Assembly: GCF_901538265.1 (NCBI RefSeq)
Contig: NZ_LR593886.1
Coordinates: 4,919,738 to 4,983,737, forward strand
Length of the DNA stretch: 64,000 bases
Origin: Gemmata massiliana
GTDB taxonomy: Bacteria; Planctomycetota; Planctomycetia; Gemmatales; Gemmataceae
Direction of reading: 5' to 3'
Shown piece after piece: positions 1,864-61,827 of this stretch. The notes under the pieces are model-generated. The model ran no database searches, was not told the origin of the DNA, and saw only the letters and a program-made list of their open reading frames with translations. A program made the translations under genes and the position numbers. The stretch's first letter is position 1. Each line of letters begins with the position of its first letter.

Positions 1864-4800
1864 CTACCAACGGGCCACCCATTCGCTCCATGTCACTCGA
1901 CGGGCGAGCGCCCCGGCACCTTGTTCTGGCCCCGCTTCGGTCGTGCGTTCACGGGTATCGAACCGCGCGGCGGCGGCCATATCGAGAAGTCCCCGCAAGG
2001 CGAACGCGGACACCGCGCGCTGGGTTTCCGTCAGTTTGTCGGCCCAGCCCATGTGCGGGATGCTCGCTTCGATTGCCCCACCGATATTCTCAAACGCGAT
2101 TACGAACGGATCGCGACCCAGTGCGGGCGCTCGTAGCTCGATTTCCGCACGTTGGCACCCGAACCGGATCGTGCCTACCTCGACGGCGATTCCGCCCCAA
2201 TCTTTGTTGCCGGCCAAGAGGGGAAGGAGTTCGCGCTCGATGAACCGATGAACCCCCTCGGCCGCGTGCTCCAGTTCGTGGTGCAAGCGGGCAGTTTTGG
2301 CCTTATCGCCCGCGTCGAGAGCGTGCCGCGTCTTGCGGTGCAGCTTCGGAACCGTTCCGGAGTGGAACCCCGGGCGCAGCAGCCCGCGCATCGATTCTCC
2401 GTGTGAACCGAGCATCACCGGTTTCAGATCGGGCGATAGGTTCGCGCGGTACAACCGCCAGTTTTCCTTCAACTCCCACGCGACGAACCCGAAAACACCG
2501 GGGCACCCGTTAATGATCGCGGTAGCGGGTACGATGCCGATCTGCTTGGACAGCGGGACTATCGTTGGCCACACGAGTTTGTGGCCGATTGTGACGACCG
2601 GGAAGTGCTTCACCGGGTTCACTTGAGGTTCCAACAGCAAGTAGAACGCGAACCGCGTCACGTAGGCGATCGGGAACCAAATCAGCCCGAGAATCGCTTT
2701 AAGAGCGAACGAACCCTGCGAATCGCCGCCGCGGAATCGCATCCATTCGTCCACGGCATAAAGTTGCCGCTCTACCCAGTTTGCGAGTGTGCGGAACAGG
2801 TCAATAATCGCGCCGATCAGACCGGGTAAGAGATTGGAACGAACGAGACGCCACCAGTCTGACAAGGCCTCTGCTATACGGTCCTGGAACATCCACCCGG
2901 ACGGCAAGTTGTACAAAGCGGCCAGGGCCACAAACCATACTAATCCCCACCCTAACAGGAACCGTGGGGGCAATCCGAAGATGATGAAAATCCCGACCAA
3001 AATGAGGCTCAGAAGTAGCGGGCTAAAAAAGTGACGGTACAGGAACCGGGCGAAGTTGCTGTGCCGAATCGCGCGCAAGGAAGGTGACCGCCAAATCGCA
3101 CGGGGCAGATCCCAGAGCAATCCCCTTATAGCTCGCCATACGAATCGCAAAGCCGCGACCACCGCGCGCCGGAACGGGGCCGCGTGGAAGATCAACAGTA
3201 GGAAAACTCCTAAACCCAGGAGCGCTGGCCACGTAATCAGACTCGGTTCCGCTTCATAGAATTCGAGTGTTTCTGGGTCGAACTCCCACACCGTGTGCTC
3301 TTTTTTCGCGGCCGACGACGTGAACACGTTTGTCACAAGATCGACACGGGCTTCAACACCTTTCTCCACGAACTCCAGAGTGTCTTCGTCGAAATCGGCT
3401 GGCGTTGGCACCTCGTCTTCAAAAAACTCCAGAGTGTCCTCGTCGAAATCCCATTCCCATTGTTGTGCTTCTCCTCCCGGAGCGTTCTTGAGAGTGATCG
3501 GCGCGACCTGAGCTTTGGTTTTGTCGAACGATTTCCCAACTAATTCGACGACTTTTCCGCCATGATGCCGTATTTCCTCGGCGACCATCAACACGCCGAA
3601 GGCGCCACCGAATGGCAGAAGTAGGTACAGCGTGAGCACCCGCCCCCACGGAGTACCGAAGAAGATCGAACTGAACCGCTGGATCGTTCGGAGGTAGATT
3701 TCTCCCCGTCGGTAGACCCCATCAAGTGCGTATGCGAGATTCCGGTCCGCGCGCAACAAAGGGTCGCCGGTCAGAAATTCCTTGATTCCCGCGAGATCGG
3801 AGAGCTTGAGCCGATTACGTGCGACCGCGTCGCGTAGGTCACCGATCCGGAGGAACCCGCGGTCGCAAATGCGATCGAGCAGCTCCGCAACGAGCTTATC
3901 ACGCGCGACTTCTTCGACCCGGTTGGTCGGCACCACTCCCGCGTCCGTGAGTGCGCGCGTGATGATCGGCTCGAACTCGTGCCGGATCGCATGCGCCCGT
4001 CGGTGGACCTCGTGGTGCATCAGGCGGTCGAGGCGCAGTTGCTCCTGCTCGTCCAACCCCGCGCGGAGAAGTTGCTTGTGCGCCTTATTGAGCGCCATGA
4101 GCAACATGACCGGGCGCGCGTGTGGCAGGTGCCTGCGAACCGGGCGCCGGCCGAACGTGCGAATGTACTCGGGTAGGTCCACGGCGTAAACTTCGCGCGC
4201 GAGATCTGCCGGGATGCGCTGGAGCTCGTAAAGGCAGCGCGCAGCGCGGGGCCAGATACCCGCGGCCGCGAGAGGGAGCAGTGGACCGAGTGCCTGACGC
4301 CACTCCTGGCGCGTTTCGTGGTCCCATTCCAGCACAGCGCCGAGCCGGTCCACCAACTGTCCGAGGGCGTCGATGGCTCCCGCCACGGCCCGCTCGCAGT
4401 CTTCCCCTCGACCGATCTCGGCCGCCTGGGTGCGGAGTATTGCCGCGCGAACGAGGTTCCCTTTCTGTTCGGCGTCGAGTGCTTTTTGGAGTCGTCCGCT
4501 CGTGTCCCCTGGAGCACCCGCACTTGTCGCGGATGTTCGCGGCGAACAAGGCGCGCACCAGCGGTCGTCCGGGGACGGATCGCGTTCCGGGTCCGCAGCG
4601 CCCGCGGGGCGTGAGCGCGTCACGAGTTCCGGGATCGCAATCCCGTCCGAAAGAACGTCTCGAACGGTGTGGCCGTGGGGCAGGGCGGGGAAATACTCCT
4701 CTGCCGCGTGAGTCGTGAAGTGGTCGAGATCGAGGTACACGGCTGCGAACACGCGGTAGCGGTCCGCGTCGCTTGCTTTGGGGTCCGCAAGGTGTTCGCA

Positions 4801-5229
4801 TTCCAAAACGTAGCGGATTTCGCGCGCCGCACTCGGACCAAAGGCATTCAGCCGTGCGGAACACGCTTCCGGGCTGAGTTTCCCGGACGCGAGTTGATCG
4901 TCGACCGCCCGCATGACGGCCGCGCGGAACAGCACGCGCCAGTAAGCACGCAACTGTTCTGCCTGGGGCTTTTTCTCGATCAATCGGTCGTTCGGGTCGG
5001 TCACGAGGAGCAGCCGCGTTTCTGGCCCCTCCGTGACCGCACGCGGGAGTACGTCTGCAGCAACAAGCTCGGCCCGGCTGAACCAGTACGGCAGATCGGT
5101 ACGCGAGGGTAGCGCGTGTCCGCGATCGGCCAGATAGTTCAATACCTGGCGCAAGTGCCGTTCGGACACGAGCCGCAAGGCCGGTTCAACGGCGCGGAGG
5201 ATCGGTTCGAGGCTCGAATCGTGCGACAA
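1864..5229 (-). CDS. Large membrane protein of unknown function (1121 aa)
   Basis: Not recognised. The start is a TTG at 5229, supported by CAGGAG eight bases upstream and an in-frame stop seven codons further up. Residues 1-500 are soluble, Arg/Leu-rich and mostly helical. A hydrophobic hairpin follows (TLYLLLPFGGAFGVLMVA), then an acidic segment carrying three copies of a short motif: DFDEDTLEFFE, DFDEDTLEFVE and EFDPETLEFYE. After these come at least five membrane segments (WPALLGLGVFLLLIF, LLLSLILVGIFIIFGL, GWGLVWFVALAAL and others) and a long soluble C-terminal half. It follows the pseudokinase gene's upstream side with 90 bp between them and may be co-transcribed with it. Probably an inner-membrane protein; no enzymatic motif was seen. 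Confidence 0.75.
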   Translation of the reverse strand: MSHDSSLEPILRAVEPALRLVSERHLRQVLNYLADRGHALPSRTDLPYWFSRAELVAADVLPRAVTEGPETRLLLVTDPNDRLIEKKPQAEQLRAYWRVLFRAAVMRAVDDQLASGKLSPEACSARLNAFGPSAAREIRYVLECEHLADPKASDADRYRVFAAVYLDLDHFTTHAAEEYFPALPHGHTVRDVLSDGIAIPELVTRSRPAGAADPERDPSPDDRWCAPCSPRTSATSAGAPGDTSGRLQKALDAEQKGNLVRAAILRTQAAEIGRGEDCERAVAGAIDALGQLVDRLGAVLEWDHETRQEWRQALGPLLPLAAAGIWPRAARCLYELQRIPADLAREVYAVDLPEYIRTFGRRPVRRHLPHARPVMLLMALNKAHKQLLRAGLDEQEQLRLDRLMHHEVHRRAHAIRHEFEPIITRALTDAGVVPTNRVEEVARDKLVAELLDRICDRGFLRIGDLRDAVARNRLKLSDLAGIKEFLTGDPLLRADRNLAYALDGVYRRGEIYLRTIQRFSSIFFGTPWGRVLTLYLLLPFGGAFGVLMVAEEIRHHGGKVVELVGKSFDKTKAQVAPITLKNAPGGEAQQWEWDFDEDTLEFFEDEVPTPADFDEDTLEFVEKGVEARVDLVTNVFTSSAAKKEHTVWEFDPETLEFYEAEPSLITWPALLGLGVFLLLIFHAAPFRRAVVAALRFVWRAIRGLLWDLPRAIWRSPSLRAIRHSNFARFLYRHFFSPLLLSLILVGIFIIFGLPPRFLLGWGLVWFVALAALYNLPSGWMFQDRIAEALSDWWRLVRSNLLPGLIGAIIDLFRTLANWVERQLYAVDEWMRFRGGDSQGSFALKAILGLIWFPIAYVTRFAFYLLLEPQVNPVKHFPVVTIGHKLVWPTIVPLSKQIGIVPATAIINGCPGVFGFVAWELKENWRLYRANLSPDLKPVMLGSHGESMRGLLRPGFHSGTVPKLHRKTRHALDAGDKAKTARLHHELEHAAEGVHRFIERELLPLLAGNKDWGGIAVEVGTIRFGCQRAEIELRAPALGRDPFVIAFENIGGAIEASIPHMGWADKLTETQRAVSAFALRGLLDMAAAARFDTRERTTEAGPEQGAGALARRVTWSEWVARW

Positions 5230-33637: not shown

Positions 33638-34234
33638 GTGTCCGAAGCAGGCGTGATTGCGGGGCTGCTTGAGGAGCTAACGAAGCTCCCCGGCATCGGA
33701 CCCAAGAGTGCGGAGCGCATCGCGCACTTCCTGCTCGCGGGCGACCGCCGGCACGCGGTCGAACTCGCTAACGCGCTCCAGGCCGTTGCGGACAAGGTGC
33801 GGCCGTGTTCCGAGTGCTTTAACCTGACCGACGGCACCTTGTGCCCGATTTGTGGAGACCCGAAACGCGACGCGGGGGTTCTATGTGTCGTCGAGACGCC
33901 GCGCGACGTGAACTCGTTCGAGCGCGCGGGTAACTTCCGCGGGCTGTACCACGTCCTGGGCGGGCGCTTGGCCCCGCTCGACGGAATGGGGCCGGACCGG
34001 TTGACCTTTGGCGCGCTCGTGTCGCGTGTGAACCGCGGTGGTGTGCGCGAAGTAATTCTCGCGACCAGCCCGACGCTCGAAGGCGACGGTACCGCGTTGT
34101 TTGCGTCGACGGCACTGGCCCCCACGGGGGTCTCGGTGACGCGACTGGCACGGGGATTGCCTAGCGGTAGTTCCTTGGAACTCGCGAACGCACAAATGCT
34201 AGCCGAGGCACTCGACGGGCGACGAACGTTTTGA
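33638..34234 (+). CDS. recR: Recombination mediator protein RecR
   Basis: A 198-residue protein of the RecFOR pathway, which loads RecA at gaps in DNA. N-terminal helix-hairpin-helix 'LTKLPGIGPKSAERIAHFLL', zinc finger 'CSECFNLTDGTLCPICGD', then a Toprim domain with 'LCVVETPRDVNSFERAGNFRGLYHVLGGRLAPLDGMGPD'. The C-terminus 'SVTRLARGLPSGSSLELANAQMLAEALDGR' is the usual RecR ending. The GTG at 33638 is preferred because GGAG lies nine bases upstream; the GTG two codons earlier has only a three-base gap. Confidence 0.93.
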   Translation: MSEAGVIAGLLEELTKLPGIGPKSAERIAHFLLAGDRRHAVELANALQAVADKVRPCSECFNLTDGTLCPICGDPKRDAGVLCVVETPRDVNSFERAGNFRGLYHVLGGRLAPLDGMGPDRLTFGALVSRVNRGGVREVILATSPTLEGDGTALFASTALAPTGVSVTRLARGLPSGSSLELANAQMLAEALDGRRTF

Positions 34235-34416: not shown

Positions 34417-36024
34417 ATGAGCGGTCTCGGAATGAGAATGGACATCCGCGTTCGCCAAGACCTGCGCCAGGTCTTGGCTCCGCGCATGATCCAGTCCATG
34501 GAAATACTCCAGTTGTCCATCACGGACCTCCAAACGAAGATCGACGAGGCTCTCCAAGAGAACCCGTTCCTCGAGCTGAAGGAAAAGCTCGGCGAGGTGG
34601 ACGAGGTGGCCCCGGACTTCAACCCGGACGCGCCGCTCAAGCACGACGAGACGGGCGACCTGGAGTTCAACCGGCTTGAGGAACTCAACCGCGACTGGGA
34701 CGATCACTTCAACGAGGAGCACCGCGGTAGCCGCGCCTCGATGGAAGAGGAGGGGGACCGGAAGCTCGAAGCGATGGCGAACATGCCCGATCGCGCCCCG
34801 TCGCTCCAGGACTACCTCGCGGACCAGATCGGCGAACTGGAACTCGAAGAGGACGAACGGCGCCTCGCGCGGCACATTTGCAGCTTCGTGGACCGCACCG
34901 GGTACCTCGGCGCGCGGCTCAAGGTCCGCAAGGGCAAGGACCGCGAGGAACTGGACGAAGAAGACAAGGACAAGCCCAAGAAGAAGAAGGCCGACGACGA
35001 GAACGACGAGGAACTGTACAGCGACGTCTTCCGCACGGTGCCGCTGAGCGAGATCGCGTCGCTCTACGACGCGACCGTGACCGCCGAAGACGTTGAAGAC
35101 ACGCTCGTCCACGTCGTACAGAAGCTCGACCCGCCCGGCGTCGCCGCTCGTGATCTCAAAGAGTGCCTGTTACTCCAGGTACCGCCCGATGCGCCGATGG
35201 CCGAGGCGATGCGGGTCATCATCCGCGACCACCTCGAAGACGTCGGGGCGAACCGCATCCCGGTGATCCAGAAGGCCACGCGGTACGAACTTGCCACGAT
35301 CCAGGACACGATCGCAGCGATCCAGCACCTGGACCCGAAGCCGGGGTTGAAGTTCTCCGACTCCGGCACGCGGTACGTGATGCCCGACGTGGTGGTGGAG
35401 CGCGCCGACGACAGCGACTACACGGTGCGCCTCACCGACGAATGGGTACCGCGCATCCGCGTGAGCAAGCGCATCGTGGACCTGTGCAAGCGCCAGGATC
35501 TGGACGAGAGCGTGAAGGAAGAACTGCGCAAGAAGCTCCAGTCGGCCGACTGGCTCGTGAAGGCCGTGGAACAGCGCCGCAACACGCTGCTGAAGGTGAC
35601 GAAGGCCATTATTGACCACCAGCGGGCGTTCCTCGACTACGGCCCCGAGCACATTCACCCGCTGAAGATGCAGCAGATCGCCGACCAGGTGAAGGTCCAC
35701 GTCACGACCGTGAGCCGGGCCGTGGACGACAAGTGGGTGCAGACCCCGCGCGGCGTGTTCCCGTTGAAGCGGTTCTTCGGCGGCGGGAAGGCCAACAACC
35801 AGACCGGCGAGGACGTGGCCTACGAGGTGATGAAGCAGAAGCTCCTCGAACTCGTTTCCAACGAGGACAAGGCGAACCCACTGTCCGACGAGGAACTCGT
35901 CACGCTGCTGAAGGCCGACGGGTACCCGGTGGCCCGCCGAACCGTGACCAAGTACCGCAAGATGCTCAACATCCCGAGCAGCCGCCAGCGCAAGGACTGG
36001 TCGCTCTCGCCGACGACAACGTGA
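34417..36024 (+). CDS. rpoN: RNA polymerase sigma-54 factor
   Basis: A 535-residue sigma-54. Region I at the N-terminus is Gln/Leu-rich ('RQVLAPRMIQSMEILQLSITDLQTKIDEALQENPFLEL'). The core-binding region has 'VQKLDPPGVAARDLKECLLLQV', the helix-turn-helix 'MQQIADQVKVHVTTVSRAVDDKWVQTPRGVFPLKRFF', and the RpoN box 'ARRTVTKYR' recognises the -24 element. The ATG at 34417 has GAGAGGG upstream. Odd feature: a charged insert of about 30 residues (near 170-200) rich in Lys, Glu and Asp between the first core-binding helices. The NtrC-type regulator at 25.5 kb and the CARF activator at 60.2 kb are its partners in this window. Confidence 0.95.
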   Translation: MSGLGMRMDIRVRQDLRQVLAPRMIQSMEILQLSITDLQTKIDEALQENPFLELKEKLGEVDEVAPDFNPDAPLKHDETGDLEFNRLEELNRDWDDHFNEEHRGSRASMEEEGDRKLEAMANMPDRAPSLQDYLADQIGELELEEDERRLARHICSFVDRTGYLGARLKVRKGKDREELDEEDKDKPKKKKADDENDEELYSDVFRTVPLSEIASLYDATVTAEDVEDTLVHVVQKLDPPGVAARDLKECLLLQVPPDAPMAEAMRVIIRDHLEDVGANRIPVIQKATRYELATIQDTIAAIQHLDPKPGLKFSDSGTRYVMPDVVVERADDSDYTVRLTDEWVPRIRVSKRIVDLCKRQDLDESVKEELRKKLQSADWLVKAVEQRRNTLLKVTKAIIDHQRAFLDYGPEHIHPLKMQQIADQVKVHVTTVSRAVDDKWVQTPRGVFPLKRFFGGGKANNQTGEDVAYEVMKQKLLELVSNEDKANPLSDEELVTLLKADGYPVARRTVTKYRKMLNIPSSRQRKDWSLSPTTT

Positions 36025-43879: not shown

Positions 43880-44412
43880 GATGACTCCCGGTTCGGCCGT
43901 GGGTTCGTGCCGGAAGGATGGCGACACGGTCGAGTTGGTTCAGGTGGTTCGTACTCGCGCGAACTCGAATCGCTCGCGACCCCGTGCGGATCTCTGTTAT
44001 TGGCACCCGATTCCGCGCGATTCAAGTATGAGACATGCATGAGGTGTGAATTTCATACTCATGATATCGTCGGGCAAAATGGCCCCCGCACGTTCACCCC
44101 GGCCGCTAATCAACCAGCGGGGTTATCGCCTTTTTGTTACTGCTCTGCGCGTCTTATCTTCACTCTTGCACCGTTGCTGATTTAGGTATGGTGTAGCAGT
44201 CAAGAAGCTTCAACTAAGGATCGGCTCAACGCTTTCTATTTTCAGGTGTTATCGCGGCAAAGTGGCTTGACCAATTGCGACCAATATCCGAGGCCGGTTC
44301 TGGAGTCGCAATCGCTTAAAGTTGCTTGTGTACCAAGTGCTCATTCAAAGCAGTTGGCACTTGAATTGCAGCTTTCTCATAGTCCCATCCATAAAAATCA
44401 CTGCGGCGAGCT
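43880..44412. other. Divergent intergenic region RNA ligase/dabA
   Basis: A 533-base gap, clearly less GC-rich from about 44030 to 44400 than the flanking genes. No convincing gene was found. Short AT-rich stretches suggest the promoters of both divergent genes, but no -35/-10 pair or sigma-54 site could be assigned with confidence. Confidence 0.4.
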
Positions 44413-47400
44413 ATGGCTGCCAAGAACACCGCACACTCCGACCCTCAGTCTCACGGACCGGGGGCCGATTCACCTGCCGACCGTCTCCGCCACATAATCG
44501 ACCACACCGCCCATCTGCTGCCCGCTCAGGGACCGATTTCGGTCTTCATTCACCACAACACGCTCCACGCATTCGAGCACATGCCGTTCTCAGAAGCGGT
44601 CGAGCACGGGGGCGAGTTGTTCGGGTGCGAGCCGTACATGACTGAGGACCGGTACCGCGACGCGCTCGTGCGCGGGCGCATCCGGTTCGAGGATCTGCGT
44701 GCGGTGCTGGCGAGTGACCTCGGTTCGCGGGCGTCGGAACCGTTCCCGCCCTACGGAACGAGGCTGGATCTGCGGTTGGCGCTGCTCCAGTACCCGCTCC
44801 AGGAAGTGCGGAGCGAGGCCGAGTTGCAGTGGTTCATCGAAGAAACCGATGCGCTACGCCGGGTGCGGCCCGAAGCGTCGGCCGCGGCGCGGTCCAAGTT
44901 GATTGGTGAGACTCGCCGGTGGGCAATGCGTGACCTCCGCGGGAACAACACCGAGCAGCGCCCGGCGTGGCTGGTTCGCGTGCTGGAGGAACACGGCAGC
45001 GACGGCGTGGACATGCTGCCCGAAGAGGTCTGGGAAGCATGCGCGTTGGAATCGCTGTGGCACAGTTGCCTCGAAGGGGTGCGGAACGTGCCGCAAACGG
45101 CGTTCGCGCCGCCGGTACCGATCCGCCACCGCGACTTGCTGTTGACGGTCGCCGGTGTGGATATCGACATCCCGGTCAACGAACTCCTGACCCGATTCTG
45201 CGCCGCGTTCCTCGATCAAGGCGTCGCACACTGGCAGCTCCCGAACCGCGACGAAGGGTTCTTCCGCACGTTCGGGACGCTGTACCGCCAGTCGTCGGCG
45301 GTGCCCAACCGGTGGCTCCGCGGGCTGGACACGGAACTGGCCCGGCTATTGGATGGGAACATATCCCCGCTCGAATCCGCGTGTGCGTCGCTGACCACAC
45401 TCGGTGTCCCGGAAGCCGAGTGGAATGCGTACATCGCTTCAACGCTGCTCTCGCTCCGCGGTTGGGGCGGGATGATCCACCAGACCGAGGAGCGCCGCGA
45501 CCGGCTTCCGACCCCGCCGAAGGCAGGGAGCCTGCACGAATTCGTCGCGGTGCGGCTGCTCCTGGAACGCCTCGCCATTGAGAACGCGGCGCGCGAAACG
45601 CTCGACTACACGGGGCCGCTCGAGGAACTGCGTGCGCACCTGCGATCGCGGCTCAAACCGTGGGCGCCGCCGAGCCTGCAAATGCGCGCGTTCCCGATCT
45701 TCCAACTCGCTCAAGTGCTCGGCTGGTCCCCGGACGAACTGGCCGCGTGGCTGACCCCGGCCGCGTGGGAAACGCTCGTGCGCGAGATCGAGGGCTTTTC
45801 GGACATCCCGCGCCGGCGCGTGTTCCACCTCGCGTATGAGGCCCGATTTCGCGCGCAAGTTCTGGACGCATTAGCACTGCACGCATCACGGAAGCCGACC
45901 GCACCGCGGTTTCAGGTCGTGACGTGTCTGGACGAGCGCGAAGAATCGTTCCGCCGGCACCTGGAAGAAGTCGCTCCGGACAGTGAGACGTTCGGCGCCG
46001 CCGGGTTCTTCGCGCTCCCGATGTACTACAGGGGGGCGACCGACGCACACTTCATCCCGCTCTGTCCCATCGTGATTACGCCAAAGCACTGGGTCGCAGA
46101 GCGCCCCGACGAGAGCCTGGAACAAGCGCACGATCGGGTGCGCCGAACACACCGGGTGCTCGGGCGGGCCGCTCACCAGGCGCACCTCGGCAGCCGGTCG
46201 CTGGCGCTCGGTACGGTGCTCGCGGGCGCCCTCGGGTTTTTTGCCTCGATCCCGCTCGTGGCTCGAACGCTGTTCCCCCGATTGACGGCCCGGGCGCGCA
46301 ACCGGTTCGGCCGGATCGTGTCCCCCACGTCCCGGACCCGGCTCGTGCTGGAGCGCGAGATGGGGTGTACGCCCGGACCGACGAACGGGAGCCTCGGGTT
46401 CACGCTCGACGAACTGGTAGCGAGTGCCGAGCGACTGCTCGGCGACTTGGGTCTGACGAAGAATTTCGCCCGCCTCGTGTTCACGATCGGGCACGGTTCG
46501 TCCAGTTTGAACAACCCGCACAAGTCCGCCTACGACTGCGGCGCGTGCGGCGGGTCGCCGGGCGCGCCAAACGGGCGCGGGGCGGCTCAGGTGCTCAACG
46601 ACCCGCGGGTGCGCCGGCGGCTCGAACAGAACGGGATCGCCATTCCGGACTCGACGTGGTTCGTCGGCGGGTTCCACAACACGTGCAACGATTCGGTCAC
46701 GCTGTTCGACCTGGACCGCGTGCCGGACACGCACCGGGCGGAGTTCAACCGGGCGTGCTCCGAGATCGAACAGGCACTCGACCGCAACGCACACGAGCGC
46801 TGCCGCCGGTTCATGTCTGCGCCCCTGGATCTGACCCCGGCCGAAGCCCGGCGCCACGTCGAGGAGCGGAGCGAGGATCTGGCCCAAACGCGACCGGAAT
46901 TGGGGCACGCGACCAACGCCATCACGCACGTGGGGCGCCGGGAGCGCACGCGGGGGCTGTTCCTCGATCGGCGCGCGTTCCTGACGGCATACGACCCGAC
47001 CCAGGACGATGAGAACGGTACCATCCTGGCCCGTACAATGGCCGCGATTTTCCCGGTGTGTGGCGGGATCAACCTCGAATACTACTTCTCGCACACCGAT
47101 TCGCCTGGGTACGGGTGCGGTACCAAACTCCCGCACAACATCACGGCGCTATTGGGCGTGATGGACGGTGCAGCGAGCGATCTGCGTACCGGGCTACCGT
47201 GGCAGATGGTCGAGATCCATGAACCGGTGCGCCTGCTGATCGTGTGCGAAACCACACCCGAGATCATGCACAAGGTGCTCAACGGCAACCCGCTCGGGAA
47301 GACGATGACCCAGAACGGTTGGGTTCAGCTCGCCGTGCAATCGCCGAACTCGAACGACATCATGCTCTACGAGAACGGGGACTTCCGCCCCTACCGGCCA

Positions 47401-47493
47401 CTCGAAGCGCGGCTACCGACCGCTGCGTCGTCCGCGGACTGGTACCGTCACTGCCGAAATCACCTGGAGTTCGCGGAAATCGGGGTCATGTGA
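44413..47493 (+). CDS. dabA: DabA-type inorganic carbon transport protein (DUF2309)
   Basis: A 1026-residue member of the DUF2309/DabA family, the zinc-containing carbonic-anhydrase-like subunit of DAB CO2-concentrating complexes. Four zinc-site residues can be placed: Cys505 and Asp507 in 'VVTCLDEREE', His694 in 'TIGHGSSS' and Cys709 in 'YDCGACGG'. The His to Cys spacing of 15 equals that in Halothiobacillus DabA. N-terminal 'ISVFIHHNTLHAFEHMPF' is the family opening. DabA normally needs a membrane partner, DabB (NADH-dehydrogenase-like), which is absent here on either side. The upstream neighbour is an RNA ligase in the opposite direction. A terminator follows the stop. Confidence 0.85.
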   Translation: MAAKNTAHSDPQSHGPGADSPADRLRHIIDHTAHLLPAQGPISVFIHHNTLHAFEHMPFSEAVEHGGELFGCEPYMTEDRYRDALVRGRIRFEDLRAVLASDLGSRASEPFPPYGTRLDLRLALLQYPLQEVRSEAELQWFIEETDALRRVRPEASAAARSKLIGETRRWAMRDLRGNNTEQRPAWLVRVLEEHGSDGVDMLPEEVWEACALESLWHSCLEGVRNVPQTAFAPPVPIRHRDLLLTVAGVDIDIPVNELLTRFCAAFLDQGVAHWQLPNRDEGFFRTFGTLYRQSSAVPNRWLRGLDTELARLLDGNISPLESACASLTTLGVPEAEWNAYIASTLLSLRGWGGMIHQTEERRDRLPTPPKAGSLHEFVAVRLLLERLAIENAARETLDYTGPLEELRAHLRSRLKPWAPPSLQMRAFPIFQLAQVLGWSPDELAAWLTPAAWETLVREIEGFSDIPRRRVFHLAYEARFRAQVLDALALHASRKPTAPRFQVVTCLDEREESFRRHLEEVAPDSETFGAAGFFALPMYYRGATDAHFIPLCPIVITPKHWVAERPDESLEQAHDRVRRTHRVLGRAAHQAHLGSRSLALGTVLAGALGFFASIPLVARTLFPRLTARARNRFGRIVSPTSRTRLVLEREMGCTPGPTNGSLGFTLDELVASAERLLGDLGLTKNFARLVFTIGHGSSSLNNPHKSAYDCGACGGSPGAPNGRGAAQVLNDPRVRRRLEQNGIAIPDSTWFVGGFHNTCNDSVTLFDLDRVPDTHRAEFNRACSEIEQALDRNAHERCRRFMSAPLDLTPAEARRHVEERSEDLAQTRPELGHATNAITHVGRRERTRGLFLDRRAFLTAYDPTQDDENGTILARTMAAIFPVCGGINLEYYFSHTDSPGYGCGTKLPHNITALLGVMDGAASDLRTGLPWQMVEIHEPVRLLIVCETTPEIMHKVLNGNPLGKTMTQNGWVQLAVQSPNSNDIMLYENGDFRPYRPLEARLPTAASSADWYRHCRNHLEFAEIGVM

Positions 47494-52685: not shown

Positions 52686-54533
52686 TTACGCGAACCGCGC
52701 GGCGATCCAACTGGCCGCGCGGAGTGCCCGGCCGGTAACCGGGGAGATTCTTTCGATCGCTTCCACCCAGCCGCGCACGCGATCCTTGTTTGGGTCCGAT
52801 TTCGCTGTCTCCTTTTCGATGCGCTCCACGTTATCTTTTGCCTCTTTGTGGTCATCCGGGTCAAGGTTCTCTGCGGCGAGTTGGGTCAGAGCCGCTTCTA
52901 AAAACTTTTTCAGCTCCTCTGCTGAAGACGCGCCCGACGGTAACTGTTGACGAATGTTCGTGACGATCTGCTCGGCTGTCACGCTCGCTCCGCGCCCGAC
53001 TGCGCTACCACTGACGTTACCACCGATGTTAATCTTGTCGCCCACGTTGGCCTCCTGATGAGACTGACGGAACTTGCTACGATCGTAAATTGCTCCGACG
53101 TTTCCATAAACGATTAGCGCCCCACTCTCATGAACCCGACCGCGCGAAATGGAAAGTTCATCCGGTCCGAGCACCTCGTCCGAGTTTCTGACGACTAATG
53201 GCTCCGGCCCTACGCCGGTGAGTAACCCTTTGATCTCAAATTGCGCATTGGTATTGAGGTAGGTCACGCGGTGTACCCCGTCGCGCTCAAGTGACAGTAG
53301 GGTCTCGAAGTCGAAAGCCGCGTCTGGGTATCCGAGAACACTTACCGGGATCTTGGTAAAAACGTCAGCCCCGGGAACGAGTTTATTTAATTCGTGGACC
53401 GCTGCGAAATGTTCACGGACCACTGTTAGCGCGCTACGACGCGATGCTTCGGGACCGCGGACAGTGATTGCGACCCGACGCTTGTGGGGTTCCATCTTCA
53501 CGAGTACCTCACACCCGTCGATGCCCAGTATAACGCCGTTGAGCCATGCAATTCGGGGGCGGGTCAGATGCCGGTGTGCGAGTACCACAAATCGCGGGAG
53601 CAGCCCGCGCGGCGGGGTATCCTGGTACTCGTATCGGAATCGAAGTAATCCTGTCTCGTCCCAACCTGGTAGATCGGGTTCCTCCACCGGGAATCGGTTG
53701 GGAACGAGGTATCGGTCTTTGGTCGTAGGGAGTTTGAAACTGAGGCCGAAACGCTCCATCATCTCGGAGATAAATGTCCAGCGTTCGGACGGGTATTGCT
53801 TGGCTAGCTTTTCTGAAAGCCCCGCGAGTAGCGCGCCGATTTCGCTCACAGAAAACTCACCTCCGGCCGTTACCACGTCCGCGTGGGTGAGGATGCGGTA
53901 TACGGCGGTGGTCAGCCAGTTCGGGTCGAGCAGTGTGGTATCGTCGTACTTCACCACCACCCCGATGCGGTCGAGCAGCAAGAGCAGGTTTTCTTGTTCG
54001 TCTTGCTCGGTGATTTTTTGAGTTCGGCACTTGTCGCGGTAGGTATTGGTGTTCAGGATCGACGCTCGACGCGCGGTCTTGGCAAGTTCTTCTTTGACCG
54101 CGAAGTAGCTCCGCGGGAACTGGTCTCGGACGTGAGGCAACTCAGCTCGGATCACCTCAACGATGGTTTGCCGTAACTCGTTGATACCTCGACCCTCAAA
54201 CTCGGCACGGCATGAGGTGCGCACGAATCGCTTGATAACAGGAAACTCGCGCTGGAGACGCTTTTCATCGATCTGAAGATCTTGTGGCGGTTCACTTTTA
54301 TTGATGACGACAACGACGGGTACGTCCTCGGCCGTGCGCGACCGGATCGCACGGAGCCAGGCAATGAGGTGTGCCTCCTGTTCGGTTTCGTTTTCCTTTC
54401 GGGCGCTAAGTACGACGAGGTATAAGGAGCGGGCGGTGAGGAAGAATTGGTGGGTCTCTTTGAGAACCTGCTGCCCGCCGAAGTCCCACACGTTGAGGCG
54501 CAGCGGGGTCTCGCCAACCGCTTCCCGATCCAC
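52686..54533 (-). CDS. ROC-COR part of a broken Roco protein
   Basis: A 615-residue frame. It opens with 'DREAVGETPLRLNVWDFGGQQVLKETHQFFLTARSLYLVVLSAR', which is the second half of a Roco GTPase: G3 is DFGG (17-20) and G4 is NKSE (78-81). The COR domain follows ('FPRSYFAVKEELAKTARRASILNTNTYRDKC', 'RIGVVVKYDDTTLLDPNWLTTAVYRILTHADVV', 'RFRYEYQDTPPRGLLPRFVVLAHRHL'). The C-terminus has a glycine-rich 'VGDKINIGGNVSGSAVGRGASV' stretch and a helical tail (about 535-615). The nucleotide-binding P-loop (G1) and switch I are absent. The LRR part lies upstream in another frame (54152-55273), so the full gene is a decayed or rearranged copy. Confidence 0.75.
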   Translation of the reverse strand: MDREAVGETPLRLNVWDFGGQQVLKETHQFFLTARSLYLVVLSARKENETEQEAHLIAWLRAIRSRTAEDVPVVVVINKSEPPQDLQIDEKRLQREFPVIKRFVRTSCRAEFEGRGINELRQTIVEVIRAELPHVRDQFPRSYFAVKEELAKTARRASILNTNTYRDKCRTQKITEQDEQENLLLLLDRIGVVVKYDDTTLLDPNWLTTAVYRILTHADVVTAGGEFSVSEIGALLAGLSEKLAKQYPSERWTFISEMMERFGLSFKLPTTKDRYLVPNRFPVEEPDLPGWDETGLLRFRYEYQDTPPRGLLPRFVVLAHRHLTRPRIAWLNGVILGIDGCEVLVKMEPHKRRVAITVRGPEASRRSALTVVREHFAAVHELNKLVPGADVFTKIPVSVLGYPDAAFDFETLLSLERDGVHRVTYLNTNAQFEIKGLLTGVGPEPLVVRNSDEVLGPDELSISRGRVHESGALIVYGNVGAIYDRSKFRQSHQEANVGDKINIGGNVSGSAVGRGASVTAEQIVTNIRQQLPSGASSAEELKKFLEAALTQLAAENLDPDDHKEAKDNVERIEKETAKSDPNKDRVRGWVEAIERISPVTGRALRAASWIAARFA

Positions 54534-55273
54534 ATTCCAACTTTTTCGGGAATTGCCGTCACCTTGTCGCAGCCTCCGAGGTCGAGGTCGGTGAGTTGTG
54601 TGAGATTCCGGGCGATGTCTGCGACCCCGGCATCCGTGACCTTGTTGCAGTATTCAAGGCTGAAGTTGGTGAGTTGGGAGAGATTGCGGGCGATGTTCGT
54701 CACCCCGGCGTCCGTCACCTTGTTGCAGTACCCGAGGTTGAGGTTAGTGAGTTGTGTGAGGTTGCGGGCGATGTCCGCGACCCCGACGTCCGTGACCTTG
54801 TTGCAGTATCCGAGGTCGAGGTTGGTGAGTTGTGTGAGGTTGCGGGCGATGTTCGTCACCCCGGCGTCCGTCACCTTGTTACAGTGCTGGAGGTTGAGGT
54901 TGGTGAGTTGGGAGAGGTTGCGGGCGATGTTTGTCACCCCGGCGTTCGTCACCTTGTTGCAGTACCCGAGATTGAGTTCAGTGAGGTTGGCGAGGGTCTG
55001 GGCGATGATTCGGAGGCTAGTATCGGAGATAACAGAAGCAGTCAGGTTCAGCTGAACGAGCTTCTTCAAACCGAGTGTAAATCCGCCGAGTCGTTCAGAG
55101 CTCCAATCTGCGTCAGTGCTCCATACGCGAAGCCCTTCTACTGCCGCGAATGTGTCGACTGCACGGGTCAAGTCCATGAAATCGTTTGCGGATAGTTCCG
55201 GTGGTAATTCCAGGTGTGAGCCGTGGGTCCGTTGATATTCGGCGAGGATGCGTTCGACGACGGGCGAGGGCAT
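54152..55273 (-). CDS. LRR part of a broken Roco protein
   Basis: The ATG at 55273 (GGAG nine bases upstream) begins a 373-residue frame. Residues 1-75 are an N-terminal cap ('PVVERILAEYQRTHGSHLELPPELSANDFMDL'). Then come six cysteine-type leucine-rich repeats of 26 residues with the pattern L-x-L-x-x-C-x-K-V-T-D-x-G-V-x-x-I-A-R-x-L. Coding sense ends at 'VTAIPEKV' near 54540. From there the frame continues as arginine/serine-rich noise antiparallel in frame to the ROC-COR coding, until a stop at 54152. The functional product probably once continued through a P-loop into the ROC-COR frame. Confidence 0.65.
   Translation of the reverse strand: MPSPVVERILAEYQRTHGSHLELPPELSANDFMDLTRAVDTFAAVEGLRVWSTDADWSSERLGGFTLGLKKLVQLNLTASVISDTSLRIIAQTLANLTELNLGYCNKVTNAGVTNIARNLSQLTNLNLQHCNKVTDAGVTNIARNLTQLTNLDLGYCNKVTDVGVADIARNLTQLTNLNLGYCNKVTDAGVTNIARNLSQLTNFSLEYCNKVTDAGVADIARNLTQLTDLDLGGCDKVTAIPEKVGMWIGKRLARPRCASTCGTSAGSRFSKRPTNSSSPPAPYTSSYLAPERKTKPNRRHTSLPGSVRSGRARPRTYPSLSSSIKVNRHKIFRSMKSVSSASFLLSSDSCAPHAVPSLRVEVSTSYGKPSLR
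54585..55020. repeat. 78-bp tandem repeats encoding LRRs
   Basis: Five to six nearly identical 78-bp units, each containing TTGGTGAGTTGTGTGAGGTT or a one- or two-base variant, encode the LRRs of the Roco locus. Identity between units is much higher than needed to keep an LRR, pointing to recent expansion. Confidence 0.8.
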
Positions 55274-55514
55274 AGAGAGTGACTCCGCGGGTGCGAGATG
55301 ATCGTACCGCACCGCGGATGGGTGTGTCACATCGAATTTCGAGCAGGCGGGTGCAGTGACGGATCATTCGATCGCAGATAGGACACTTTACGAGAACAAA
55401 TCTGCCCTTGGATTTGGATACTGTCGGTCGTTGAGCGGTTGCCCTGAAATGCGACCGGCTCGCCATTCGCGCGAGCCGGTCGGTTCATTTGGGGCAATGA
55501 GAGAATCAGATTCG

Positions 55515-58068: not shown

Positions 58069-59754
58069 TCACGAGCGGGGTGCGTCGCCTACTGCGAATT
58101 GACTCATTAATTGCGGAACGGCCGTATCGAATCCGACCACGTCCATCATCCCCGCGTCGTCCGGATCAGCAATGCTGAACCCGTTCGACACCATCCCCAC
58201 GACGATCAACTTCGCTCCGATCCCCGTCTTCTCGCGGTACCGCTGAAGCGCCTGGATCGGGTGAATGTTCCCGTGCCAGGTTTCGCTGTCCGTGTACACG
58301 ACGAACACATCGATCGCGAGTTTCCGTTCCAGGGCGTAGAGCATCGGTAGCGCGCAGTCGGTCGGTCCCATCGGGAGGTTGTCCACAACGCGGATCGCGT
58401 CGTCCAGGCGCTGGTCGGGGCGGATCGGCAGCATCTCGACCCCGCTCCCGGAGTTCGGGTACGCGGACCACGCACCGAAGGTCGCCGCCTGGGTGCCCGC
58501 AACATGAAACCCGCACCCGGTGAACCCGATGACGTGGTGATTCGGCTCGGTTGCGGCCGTAACCAGGGCCATTGCCGCGGCGCCGTCGCGGGCTGATAAA
58601 CCGGGCACACCGGCGATTGCACTCCAGCCCATGCTCCCGGACACGTCTAATGCCAGGAGCCATTTCTTGTTAGTCGGCTCGGCGTTGCCGAACGCTGCGT
58701 GAAAGGCACCATCGAGCGCGTCCACGACTCGTTGCACCGGAATCCAAAAACCGCGTCCGCGAACACCGCGACCGGATGCGTATGTCCTTAACGCGGCGAG
58801 TATGGCGATTGGGTGAAGTCGGGATCGGCGCAGGCGCTCGGTATCGGCCAGAGCCGCAACGACTCGATCCACCGCGGTCGATTCCGGTGTCAGTAAGCCG
58901 ATCCGTGTCGTCGTCGCGAGGTTTCGCACCAGGGCGCCGAGCGGCATGTGCTCCAGCAGTGCGTCCCACACGTCCATTCGGTTCAGCCACCGGGTCGGGA
59001 CACACTCCCGGGGCAGAGTGTATTCGCGAATCAGGCGGACCACTTCGGCCGGATCGGTCGCGCGCTTGGCCGCTTCAAATCCCACGATTGGCGTGAGCGG
59101 ATCGTTTACATCTACCGTGTCGGGCAATTCTCCCTTCCCAACCGCCCACCGGAGCGCGCTGTTCGACGGTTCGTTCGCTTTGACGTGACATAAACGAAGC
59201 AGATCCCGGTGCGCCCACCCACCGCGCTGCTGATACTTGCTGAGCTGATGGGCCAAGTCGCGTGGCGCCTTTTCGGTGTACCAGTTCCCTACTGCCCTAC
59301 GCAGCGCCCGCCCCCAACCGCGGAACGCCTCAACGCCCTCCACGAACTGGAACAAGTGCGTACCGATCCGGCACACGCGCGGAACAGCGGCGAGAGCTTG
59401 TGCCCGCGTGCCGGGGCTACCCATGCCCGCGGCCATCGCCAGAGCAAATACGGCCGGGTCGTTCTTCGGTGCTCGTCCCGCTTCGCTGATTTCGATGATT
59501 CGAGCTACGGTCCGGCCCCCATTGGCTTCGAGGCACCGGCGCACGGCTTCGGCGTTCTGGAGTGTCAATTGTCGCTCGTCCGCGTAGTAACTTCCGCCCT
59601 CGGCACCGAGCACGAGGAACCGGTCGAGGCGGGTCCAGTCATCAACGGCGAACGAGAAGCCGCTCGCGGAGTTGCGGACCTGCGTGCTTCCCGGGATCGG
59701 TTCGTTTTGAGGCGTGTGGCGGGGCGCGAAGTGCCCGGTGTAGCGAACGGTCAA
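58069..59754 (-). CDS. rsr: Ro60/Rsr-like RNA-binding protein (TROVE and vWA domains)
   Basis: A 561-residue homologue of the Ro 60-kDa autoantigen. The TROVE ring (about 30-350) is recognised by 'GGSYYADERQLTLQNAEAVRRCLEANGG', 'IIEISEAGRAPKNDPAVFALAMAA' and 'LSKYQQRGGWAHRDLLRLCHVK'. The C-terminal von Willebrand A domain has a metal site D-x-S-x-S at Asp370 in 'LALDVSGSMGW'. Ro proteins hold misfolded or damaged RNA ends in the ring and bind Y RNA on its outer face. The start is a TTG at 59754 with GAGGAG five bases upstream. Immediately upstream lies a structured leader and a sigma-54 promoter, opposite a CARF-type activator gene. Confidence 0.9.
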   Translation of the reverse strand: MTVRYTGHFAPRHTPQNEPIPGSTQVRNSASGFSFAVDDWTRLDRFLVLGAEGGSYYADERQLTLQNAEAVRRCLEANGGRTVARIIEISEAGRAPKNDPAVFALAMAAGMGSPGTRAQALAAVPRVCRIGTHLFQFVEGVEAFRGWGRALRRAVGNWYTEKAPRDLAHQLSKYQQRGGWAHRDLLRLCHVKANEPSNSALRWAVGKGELPDTVDVNDPLTPIVGFEAAKRATDPAEVVRLIREYTLPRECVPTRWLNRMDVWDALLEHMPLGALVRNLATTTRIGLLTPESTAVDRVVAALADTERLRRSRLHPIAILAALRTYASGRGVRGRGFWIPVQRVVDALDGAFHAAFGNAEPTNKKWLLALDVSGSMGWSAIAGVPGLSARDGAAAMALVTAATEPNHHVIGFTGCGFHVAGTQAATFGAWSAYPNSGSGVEMLPIRPDQRLDDAIRVVDNLPMGPTDCALPMLYALERKLAIDVFVVYTDSETWHGNIHPIQALQRYREKTGIGAKLIVVGMVSNGFSIADPDDAGMMDVVGFDTAVPQLMSQFAVGDAPRS

Positions 59755-59814
59755 GGCCGCTCCTCGGATGGGATATCGGGAATGTGATAAGTGAGTGGCG
59801 AGTAAACCGCGGGA

Positions 59815-59996
59815 TCGGTGGGGCAGTCGCGGATGGTCCACTTCCGCCCCACCGAGCGCGATTGCGGGGGATGAGCCCGCGGGTGCTGGCCGTGCCAGCG
59901 GCATCGTAACTCGTAGTCCGAAAGGACACCCGTGGATAACCTTCGCCTACGGCTCGCCGGCACCGGGCCGACCGAACAAGGGATTGGAGAAGGTGC
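59815..59996 (-). ncRNA. Candidate structured leader or Y-like RNA upstream of Ro60
   Basis: Low-confidence structural proposal. From the start predicted by the sigma-54 promoter (about 59996) the minus-strand RNA could form several stems: GGCACC with GGTGCC at its 5' end, GTCC-TTTC-GGAC, GCTGGC-ACG-GCCAGC, GCGGG with a seven-base loop and CCCGC, and a perfect 10-bp TCGGTGGGGC/GCCCCACCGA stem ending at 59815. The seven-base loop beside a short closing helix (CGAT/ATCG) recalls the tRNA-like module of bacterial Y RNAs, but the T-loop consensus is not met. It could also be just a long 5' UTR. Confidence 0.3.
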
Positions 59997-60006
59997 CGAT
60001 CGTAAA

Positions 60007-60022
60007 AGCACGCTCGGTGCCA
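60007..60022 (-). promoter_or_regulatory. Sigma-54 promoter for the Ro60 transcript
   Basis: Minus-strand TGGCAC-CGAGC-GTGCT matches the TGGCAC-N5-TTGCA/T consensus at all but one position, with correct spacing between the GG and GC doublets. Transcription would start near 59996, about 240 bases before the Ro60 start codon. Confidence 0.7.
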
Positions 60023-60195
60023 AATCCATTTTGTTGTGGATTGAGCGAATGAATGGGTTTCGGATTTGAAGAGCAGCGAGAGGATCGCAAGTTTCGCCCG
60101 AATCAGCAGTTCGGAGCAATCCGGCCAGGGCAAGAAATCGTGGAGAATACTCGTTCGCGCTTCGCAGTGTGTTGATCTGGGGCACTGATGGAGTT

Positions 60196-60209
60196 ACAAA
60201 ATATTTTGT
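60196..60209. promoter_or_regulatory. Palindrome ACAAAATATTTTGT, candidate activator site
   Basis: A perfect 14-bp palindrome, strikingly AT-rich for this genome, 28 bases upstream of the activator start at 60238 and about 175 bases upstream of the Ro60 sigma-54 promoter. The distance and symmetry suit an enhancer site for a dimeric sigma-54 activator or an autoregulatory operator. Confidence 0.4.
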
Positions 60210-60237
60210 CGCATCGTCCAAAAAAATGGTTCTGCTT

Positions 60238-61827
60238 ATGGCTACTCGCCGCGTGCTCGTGTCGTGGATCGGGTACGCCGATTTCCGGGCGCTGGCCGCG
60301 ACCCTTCCGCCGGACCAGCAGGCCGAGGTGTTGCGCGGGCTGAACCCGCCGACGCCGCTCATCGGCCAGGCGGGGCCGCTCAAAACGCTGCTCGACCACG
60401 AATCGTTCGCCGAGGTCCATCTGCTGACCAGTCACCCCGGCCCGCGGAACCGGCTGTACACCCGGTGGGTCGGCGGCTCCCCGGTTCTCCACCCGATCAA
60501 GGTGAACAACCCGACCGATTACGTCGAAATCTTCCAACTCGTGGATACCGAACTGGCGTCGATCGCCCGACTTCCGCGAGACGCCGACGAGGAACTGTGT
60601 ATCCACCTCAGCCCCGGTACGCCCACCATGACGGCGATCTGGGTGCTGTTGGGGAAGAGCAAGTACCAGCCGGCCACCTTCTACCAGACCCACGACGGGC
60701 GCGCCTGGGTCACCACGATCCCGTTCGACTTGGTGGTGGATTACGTTCCTCAAGTTCTGCGCGACGCGGACGCTCGGCTCCAGCTCCTGGCGGCCCAAAG
60801 TCCGCGGGACGTCCAGGGCTTTCAGGACGTGGCGGGCGACAGTCACGGCATTCGAGTCGCGGTGGGGCGGGCGCGTCGGGCAGCACGGCGCGGAGTGTCG
60901 GTTCTGATCCTGGGCGAAAGCGGCACCGGTAAGGAGTTGTTCGCCCGTGCCGTTCACGATGCGAGCCCCAGACGCGAGGGACCGTTCGTGGCCATCAACT
61001 GTGCCGCGCTCTCCCGGGAACTGCTGGAGAGCGAACTGTTCGGCCACAAGAAGGGAGCGTTCACCGGGGCTGACCGGGATCGGGAGGGGGCATTCGCAGA
61101 GGCGGATGGTGGGACGTTGTTCCTTGATGAGATCGGGGAGTGCGATCCTGCAATGCAGGCCAAGTTGTTGCGCGTCCTGCAACCGCCCGACGGGAGCCCG
61201 TGTCAACGGGTGTTCTGTCGGGTCGGCGATTCGCGCCCGCGGACCAGTGACGTCCGCATCGTTGCCGCCACCAACCGTGACCTGCTCGGGTGCGTCGCGC
61301 AGAACCAGTTCCGCGAGGATCTGTACTACCGACTGGCGACCATTACGATTAAGCTCCCGCCGCTGCGAGAGCGGCGCGGCGACGTGGGCGCGATCGCGGA
61401 ACGGCTGCTCGGTCGGATCAATCGAGATTTTGCCCAGCAGGAACCGGGGTTCCGGCCCAAGCGCCTGTCCCCTTCGGCCCTCGGGTACGTGAAGGGGCAC
61501 TCGTGGCCCGGGAACGTGCGGCAGTTGTACAACACGCTGGTTCAGGCCGCGGTGATGAGCGACGGGGACGTGATCGACCGGCGGGATCTCGACGACGCGG
61601 TCGCCGAGGTTCCGGGGCAGGCCCCCGCAGACTTGCTAGAAGTGCCGTTGGGGGGACGCTTCTCCCTGGAACGGCACCTCGAAGAGATCCAGCGCCACTA
61701 CTTGCGCCGCGCGCTGGCGGAGGCCGACGGGGTCCAACGGCGCGCGGCCGAGCTGCTCGGCTATCGGAACTACCAAACTCTGGCCGCGCAACTGGAGCGA
61801 TTGGGGATCAAAAAGGACGACCACTGA
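60238..61827 (+). CDS. RtcR-like sigma-54 activator with N-terminal CARF-like sensor domain
   Basis: A 529-residue regulator without a phosphorylation receiver. Residues 1-185 form a Rossmann-like CARF-type domain: '[16 protein letters not shown]', '[17 protein letters not shown]', the typical '[15 protein letters not shown]' loop (125-133) and '[15 protein letters not shown]'. The AAA+ sigma-54 domain has Walker A 'GESGTGKE' (226-233), 'GAFTGA' (273-278) and Walker B 'LFLDEIGE'. A Fis-like helix-turn-helix ends the protein ('[23 protein letters not shown]'). RtcR has the same architecture and activates RNA repair genes after sensing RNA ends. Divergent to Ro60, it is its probable activator. 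A start at 60226 is also possible. Confidence 0.88.

Follow-up and report, generated by a model that had tools for sequence, protein, structure and literature searches.

A putative sigma-54 promoter between a CARF-type activator gene and a Y-RNA-like element preceding the Ro60 gene of Gemmata massiliana

The Ro60 gene of Gemmata massiliana is arranged divergently from the gene of a sigma-54-dependent activator, and a -24/-12 motif lies between the two, on the strand of Ro60. Does this motif act as a sigma-54 promoter, and if so, what is transcribed from it and what switches it on? From the sequence alone, it had been predicted to be a near-consensus promoter aimed at Ro60. We followed up this original prediction by computational analyses of the whole stretch of DNA containing the locus (64,000 nucleotides; hereafter the window) and of related loci in other genomes. 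The features are collected in Table 1.

Table 1. Features of the Ro60 locus and rpoN, in window coordinates
Feature	Position	Strand	Basis or remark
rpoN (sigma-54)	34417..36024	+	Pfam AID, CBD and DBD domains over cut-off
Ro60/Rsr gene, 561 aa	58069..59754	-	Two Pfam domains above cut-off: TROVE, 132.9 bits; vWA_Ro60, 202.1 bits
GC-rich hairpin between the Y-like RNA and Ro60	59805..59863	-	Predicted in 8/8 loci; z -4.1 to -6.2 in 7/8, -1.6 in the eighth
T-arm-like element GCGGGCTCATCCCCCGC, 5-bp stem, 7-nt loop	59864-59880	-	Alignment and fold
Arm GCTGGC..GCCAGC	59885-59899	-	Alignment and fold
Y-RNA-like core: ACCUUC/GAAGGU stem, CCCUUG internal loop, GC-rich inner stem, GGUUAUC	59935..59996	-	Identity, consensus fold and covariance model
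Predicted transcription start (+1)	59996	-	Inferred, 12 nt past the C at -12
Putative sigma-54 promoter, -24/-12 elements TTGGCAC-CGAGC-GTGCT	60007..60023	-	Sequence, and invariant GGCA/TGC in 8/8 orthologous gaps
Inverted repeat ACAAAATATTTTGT, candidate enhancer (UAS)	60196..60209		28 bases separate it from the activator ATG; ~205 bp upstream of +1
CARF-AAA+-HTH sigma-54 activator, 529 aa, PADLOC clade RtcR_PspF2	60238..61827	+	PADLOC; Pfam Sigma54_activat and HTH_8

The minus strand from 60022 to 60007 reads TGGCACCGAGCGTGCT, with GG at -24 and GC at -12 placed 10 bases apart. Together with the preceding T, it gives the 17-mer TTGGCACCGAGCGTGCT, which agrees with the sigma-54 consensus used for scoring, YTGGCACGNNNNTTGCW, at 11 of its 13 specified positions. 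The predicted motif, with its essential GC and exact spacing, was thus recovered as described. A passage of PMC12316311 gives the consensus as TGGCACN5-7TTGCT. In the window, the pattern TGGCAC-N6-TGCW has two matches against 0.2 expected under a first-order Markov model, the other one being at 44355 on the plus strand, ahead of the DabA gene. Across the 10.1-Mb genome, YTGGCAC-N5-K-TGCW matches 28 times as compared to 46 times for the backward control, so the pattern is not enriched and a single match alone proves little. By arithmetic, this genome density would place ∼0.0007 matches in the 483-bp activator/Ro60 gap, counting only the strand concerned. Judged from its letters, the site is therefore notable through its location only, and by itself appears to be barely above chance. 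The earlier argument that this location makes chance unlikely is upheld by the low expectation in the gap and by the conservation in eight of eight loci described below.

The site does lie between an activator gene and a Ro60 gene, as had been claimed, both genes being real, and the window does encode RpoN, with all three Pfam sigma-54 domains. The longest Ro60 frame has an ATG further upstream, but translation most likely starts at the TTG in position 59754, which is preceded by GAGGAG (59760-59765); the distance from the predicted +1 to this TTG is about 240 nt. The three solved-structure matches of the protein are Ro60 and Rsr, and the DxSxS motif of its vWA domain, DVSGS, is invariant (10/10). 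The score against the NCBIfam Rsr equivalog was 534.7 bits, below the cut-off of 900. A second, weaker TROVE/vWA-like gene is present in the same genome (G000:C1:4096068-4096736, L022), with no match to the Y-core model described below within the surrounding 14 kb. A distant TROVE/vWA-like gene at L055 (2415-4530) adjoins 18 predicted tRNA genes, one of which was read as selenocysteine.

The best PADLOC model for the activator is RtcR_PspF2--CARF_AAA_HTH (545.2 bits, covering profile positions 2-481 of 481), followed by RtcR_PspF1 with 237 bits and RtcR with 176 bits. We rejected its assignment as RtcR proper, given this preference of PADLOC and an NCBIfam RtcR (NF038308) score of 319.8 bits versus a cut-off of 650. 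When its first 200 residues were modelled (pLDDT 77), CARF proteins (ring nucleases, Csm6 and Card1) occupied Foldseek ranks 1-6, two of them at E<0.001, with modest TM scores to the query of 0.39-0.51. By this model, the N terminus adopts a CARF Rossmann fold. With the CARF domain as query, phmmer gave no match among PDB sequences. The activator gene of Gemmata sp. IIL30 (G001) appears frameshifted near codon 447 (L018, near 8209).

We then compared the site across related Ro60 loci. A Ro60-vWA match was present in 15 of the 95 genomes of the family, and ten loci scored like canonical Ro60. An activator orthologue divergently adjoins seven of these ten; none was found at L047, L048 and L050 within the 10-13 kb stretch taken, and L048 has a distant sigma-54 activator-like match 2.8 kb beyond Ro60 (30.6%, AAA part only). 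Scanning of genome contigs with two short CARF peptide patterns yielded 10 loci, seven of them with Ro60; six of the seven were family genomes already in the set, and the new one was Aquisphaera insulae (L058). The comparison set therefore consists of eight divergent activator/Ro60 gaps, from Gemmata relatives and Aquisphaera. As G000/G001 and G007/G010 are near-duplicates, the eight loci represent six independent lineages.

GGCA and TGC are invariant at sigma-54 spacing in all eight gaps. Lack of conservation of the GG/GC doublets upstream of orthologous Ro60 genes had been named as evidence that would speak against the promoter; both doublets are kept at the same spacing in 8/8 activator-linked loci. 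Mean identity over the eight gaps is 42% in the upstream spacer, 69% in the 17-column motif and 84% in the RNA core, and seven of the 13 invariant columns of the 207-column spacer fall within the 17 motif columns (hypergeometric 8.7e-6). The term 'near-consensus' is true of the window copy; the eight orthologous copies score 8 to 11 of 13. The individual scores are indeed not striking: resampling P-values of the best sense site per gap (n=8) were 0.011, 0.011, 0.055, 0.046, 0.332, 0.279, 0.057 and 0.253, a non-conserved sense site outscores the conserved one in the Aquisphaera gap (9 versus 8), and antisense sites outscore it in the G030 gap (10 versus 9) and tie with it in the G089 gap. In the three canonical Ro60 loci of the family that are devoid of the activator, the best sense sites in 510 bases each score 8, 8 and 7 of 13, and one antisense site scores 9. 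On the level of sequence comparison, it is the conservation and not the single-site score that decides that the site is real.

What lies immediately downstream of the site? A Y-RNA-like element of 62-66 bases is present in 8/8 loci, with the outline ACCUUC-U-CC ... CCCUUG ... GGYGAAGGUUAYC (the A and the CCC vary). In the consensus fold of its core, a stem containing a pyrimidine mismatch (U-C or C-U) leads through an internal loop to a GC-rich inner hairpin. In the alignment, the inferred +1 is 2-3 nt before the conserved CCTTC in seven of the eight loci and 4 nt before it in Aquisphaera; the start originally predicted near 59996 thus agrees with the base of the conserved stem. R1, a covariance model of the core, has one strong match in its own genome, at this locus (E 2e-21; the next one has E 0.99). 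In 19 other loci, its top three matches (E 1.2e-5, 1.5e-4 and 1.4e-3) immediately precede Ro60 in the three activator-less loci, so that the conserved RNA accompanies Ro60 there as well (3/3); no match at E<0.01 was obtained in the remaining 16 (best E 0.47). A stricter family-wide RNA search found the seven activator-linked family genomes, plus weak matches in G027 and G078, but not the three activator-less loci that the local R1 search had picked up (in G024, in G051 and at the second locus of G089).

Rfam identified no Y RNA and no YrlA in the window at the gathering score; at E up to 5, the only match in 59500-60400 was an unrelated sRNA, ES205 (60196-60245, 18.7 bits versus a gathering score of 86). 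None of the 18 pairs of the core showed compensation, because the core hardly varies. The core plus arms was no more stable than shuffled sequences in most of the loci (z -2.2 to 0.0), although the whole leader of the window is unusually stable (z -2.9). In the T-arm-like element, GCGGGCUCAUCCCCCGY, the final base is C in six of the eight loci and U in two, and its loop, CUCAUCC, is one that we take not to be a standard T-loop. The GC-rich hairpin that follows is perhaps the 3' end of the RNA or a processing site.

As in YrlA and other bacterial Y RNAs (Rfam RF02553), the element lies beside Ro60 and combines a stem bearing CUUG and GGUUAUC with a T-arm-like stem after it. Unlike these RNAs, it has no Rfam match at the gathering score and only one of its arms is tRNA-like. 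In the activator-less loci L047, L048 and L050, tRNA-like RNAs occur upstream of Ro60, with the Y-like core inserted in the tRNA body. At L048, Rfam reported a tRNA interrupted by the Y core and a sub-threshold YrlA match (20.4 versus 69), and also a nearby nematode ceN72-3/ceN74-2 RNA over the gathering score (40.5 versus 38 bits). CeN72 and CeN74 are stem-bulge RNAs (sbRNAs, Y-related), which are counted as Y RNA homologues in a passage of PMC8477234. According to passages of PMC4726728, bacterial Y RNAs share no homology with the vertebrate clades, and no sbRNAs were found when Ro was immunoprecipitated from worms. On the strength of these passages, the sbRNA match at L048 is a likeness and not a proof, and we therefore call the element of the window Y-RNA-like, a putative partner of Ro60.

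Upstream of the promoter, ACAA-N6-TTGT is exact in six of the eight Ro60-linked loci, while G014 and Aquisphaera each deviate by a single letter, and it sits 169-205 bp upstream of the inferred start across the eight. This inverted repeat is a likely candidate for the enhancer used by the activator. An upstream activation sequence for RtcR is described at the E. coli rtcBA promoter in a passage of PMC9650030. Four of 12 scanned relatives that are not linked to Ro60 (L064, L065, L081 and L082) likewise have the exact repeat ahead of their activator gene, and L064, L065 and L081 have a divergent sigma-54 site as well (10-11 of 13). The divergent sites of L064 and L065 face a DUF3892 gene, and that of L081 faces a small frame and then a calcineurin-like phosphoesterase/AAA gene pair. 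Therefore, both the repeat and the divergent sigma-54 site may predate the linkage to Ro60.

The CARF domain of the activator was found at E<=1e-8 in 13 of 392 sampled genomes of the phylum. In a tree of 21 activators (midpoint root; two far rows on long branches), the eight Ro60-linked ones form one group (support 99/98), next to L064 and L065. The Ro60 tree, made without L055 and L052, is compatible with a single linkage to the activator (support 84/80). HsdR homologues lie downstream of eight of the 12 non-Ro60 relatives (L064, L065, L080, L082, L083, L084, L086 and L091; by Pfam for six). Ten of the 12 (not L080 and L090) have a sigma-54 site scoring 10-12 of 13, located from 1 nt before to 98 nt after the end of the activator stop codon, and seven of these ten are HsdR-linked (type I restriction). 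L066, L085 and L087 were excluded from this count because their contigs end too soon. Among the Ro60-linked loci, no site of at least 10/13 is present at the activator's own stop (0/8); the G030 locus has a 10-of-13 site some 610 nt past it. The Ro60-linked activator thus belongs to a CARF clade that is largely restriction-linked. Two further observations concern these relatives. At L065, a gene for Cap15, a cyclic dinucleotide receptor (4514-5104), is close to the restriction-linked activator. A 13/13 sigma-54 site, TTGGCACGCCCCTTGCA, is present on the minus strand of L066 (2557-2573), a Phycisphaerales contig, pointing away from the CARF activator gene.

Similar arrangements are known. Passages of PMC9879122 and PMC7790460 describe the Salmonella rsr-yrlB-yrlA-rtcB-rtcA operon as controlled by RtcR and sigma-54 (rsrp) in a divergent layout. 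To the extent described there, the two systems share a divergent CARF-AAA-HTH activator, a sigma-54 promoter (putative here), and Ro60/Rsr with a Y RNA (here Y-like). They differ in that the activator here is of the RtcR_PspF2 clade (PADLOC 545 versus 176 bits for RtcR), the Y-like RNA precedes Ro60, whereas in Salmonella it follows, and the unit has no rtcBA. The presence of rtcBA in the Gemmata massiliana unit was rejected, as no less than 1.3 Mb separates the two RtcB genes and the one RtcA gene of this genome from the window. Makarova et al. 2014 (PMC4012209), in the passages concerned, report relatives of RtcR that are unlinked to Rtc and often beside restriction-modification genes, and propose a sigma-54-dependent action for RtcR-like proteins in restriction neighbourhoods; the stop-codon sites of the activator relatives agree with this proposal. 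RtcR homologues also accompany CoCoNuT systems, according to a passage of PMC11090510. The activator here falls by PADLOC name in the same clade as these restriction-linked RtcR-like CARF activators, and the eight described here differ from them by being linked to Ro60 and by having no sigma-54 site of 10/13 or more at their own stop. Among the matches listed in the open-licence literature (titles and abstracts), none connects the RtcR_PspF2 clade with Ro60, and a prior listing is possible. While the Salmonella-type circuit is known, the activator clade, the Y-RNA-first order and the missing rtcBA would appear to be new here.

We consider it highly probable that the site does act as a sigma-54 promoter and that its transcript begins at about 59996 and runs through the Y-RNA-like RNA into Ro60, driven by the divergent CARF activator from the inverted repeat. 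This explanation builds on the conservation of the promoter motif, the repeat and the RNA, on the gene identities and on the single tree group of the Ro60-linked activators, all of which are observed. From these we infer the transcription start, the ligand, the binding at the enhancer, the joint transcript and the function, as follows. The N-terminal CARF domain of the activator would bind a ligand; RNA ends, or a cyclic nucleotide produced upon RNA damage or phage attack, are the probable candidates. The activator would oligomerise on the inverted repeat at about -205, loop to the promoter and remodel the sigma-54 polymerase so that the promoter opens. The polymerase would then make the Y-like RNA and continue into Ro60, and the outcome would be a coordinated, stress-induced output of the Ro60 protein plus its own Y RNA. 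The earlier reading of a promoter aimed at Ro60 is supported in this respect, its doublets being conserved; it was incomplete, in that the Y-RNA-like element comes first, with Ro60 following only after it, and that the clade of the activator and the candidate enhancer had been missed.

The most serious competitor is that the promoter serves the Y-like RNA alone, the hairpin ending the transcript and Ro60 being expressed mainly from another promoter. The coincidence of the inferred +1 with the base of the Y-like RNA fits this, and a hairpin with z of -4 to -6 in 7/8 loci, placed between the RNA and Ro60, might end most of the transcripts. However, neither a T-run terminator nor a sigma-70-like promoter was found in 59700-60300 (one type of each was scanned for), and Ro60 is kept downstream on the same strand as the promoter in 8/8 loci. 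We therefore regard a promoter for the RNA alone as unlikely. With the +1 at the base of the conserved Y-like stem and Ro60 downstream, the promoter most likely makes a joint Y RNA-Ro60 transcript.

Could the motif be no promoter at all? GGCA...TGC contains an inverted repeat (GCA/TGC), and GCAC and GTGC can pair in the window copy; the motif would then be a protein-binding site or a small RNA hairpin in a longer leader. Against this, the first G of GGCA is invariant but pairs with no constant base, G007 and G010 lack the fourth pair (T-T), and the spacing and letters match those of sigma-54 sites, which the same activator clade has at other likely targets; this explanation is very improbable. 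A chance match without function in a GC-rich genome would be in line with the 28 genome matches, fewer than those of the backward control, and with single-gap resampling P-values of up to 0.33. It is largely refuted by the invariance at a near-fixed position in 8/8 loci, with the hypergeometric probability given above, and we give it the least credence of all. The transcript from a sigma-54 promoter through the Y-like RNA into Ro60 hence remains our preferred explanation.

The conservation of the promoter further suggests, by sequence, that an activator often paired with virus-restriction genes was re-aimed once at an RNA-handling particle. A more specific scenario is tentative, and we hold it to be somewhat more likely wrong than right: a CARF clade that normally fires type I restriction via a 3'-end sigma-54 site would have been re-aimed once, with loss of that site and capture of the Y-RNA-Ro60 unit in the divergent promoter slot. 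The Ro60 particle would then be a damage- or phage-induced module, whose RNA partner is made first from the transcription start. If a different CARF activator does govern a minimal Y-RNA-Ro60 unit in this lineage, with the RNA ligase and cyclase missing, then the coupling of CARF sensing would be to Ro60 as such, and the signal could be sought in a simpler system. The lineage would also illustrate how a regulator linked to defence swaps its cargo while keeping the layout of enhancer and promoter.

Other sites in the window were also recorded. On the plus strand, TTGGCACTTGAATTGCA (44354-44370) fits 12/13 sigma-54 positions and is 42 bases ahead of the frame of the DabA inorganic-carbon transporter (44413-47493). 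CTGGCACGGGGATTGCC (34145-34161, plus strand) also fits 12/13; it is inside the frame before rpoN and is probably due to chance. On the minus strand, 52686-55330 encodes a Roc-COR protein, preceded by a frame that by eye resembles leucine-rich repeats.
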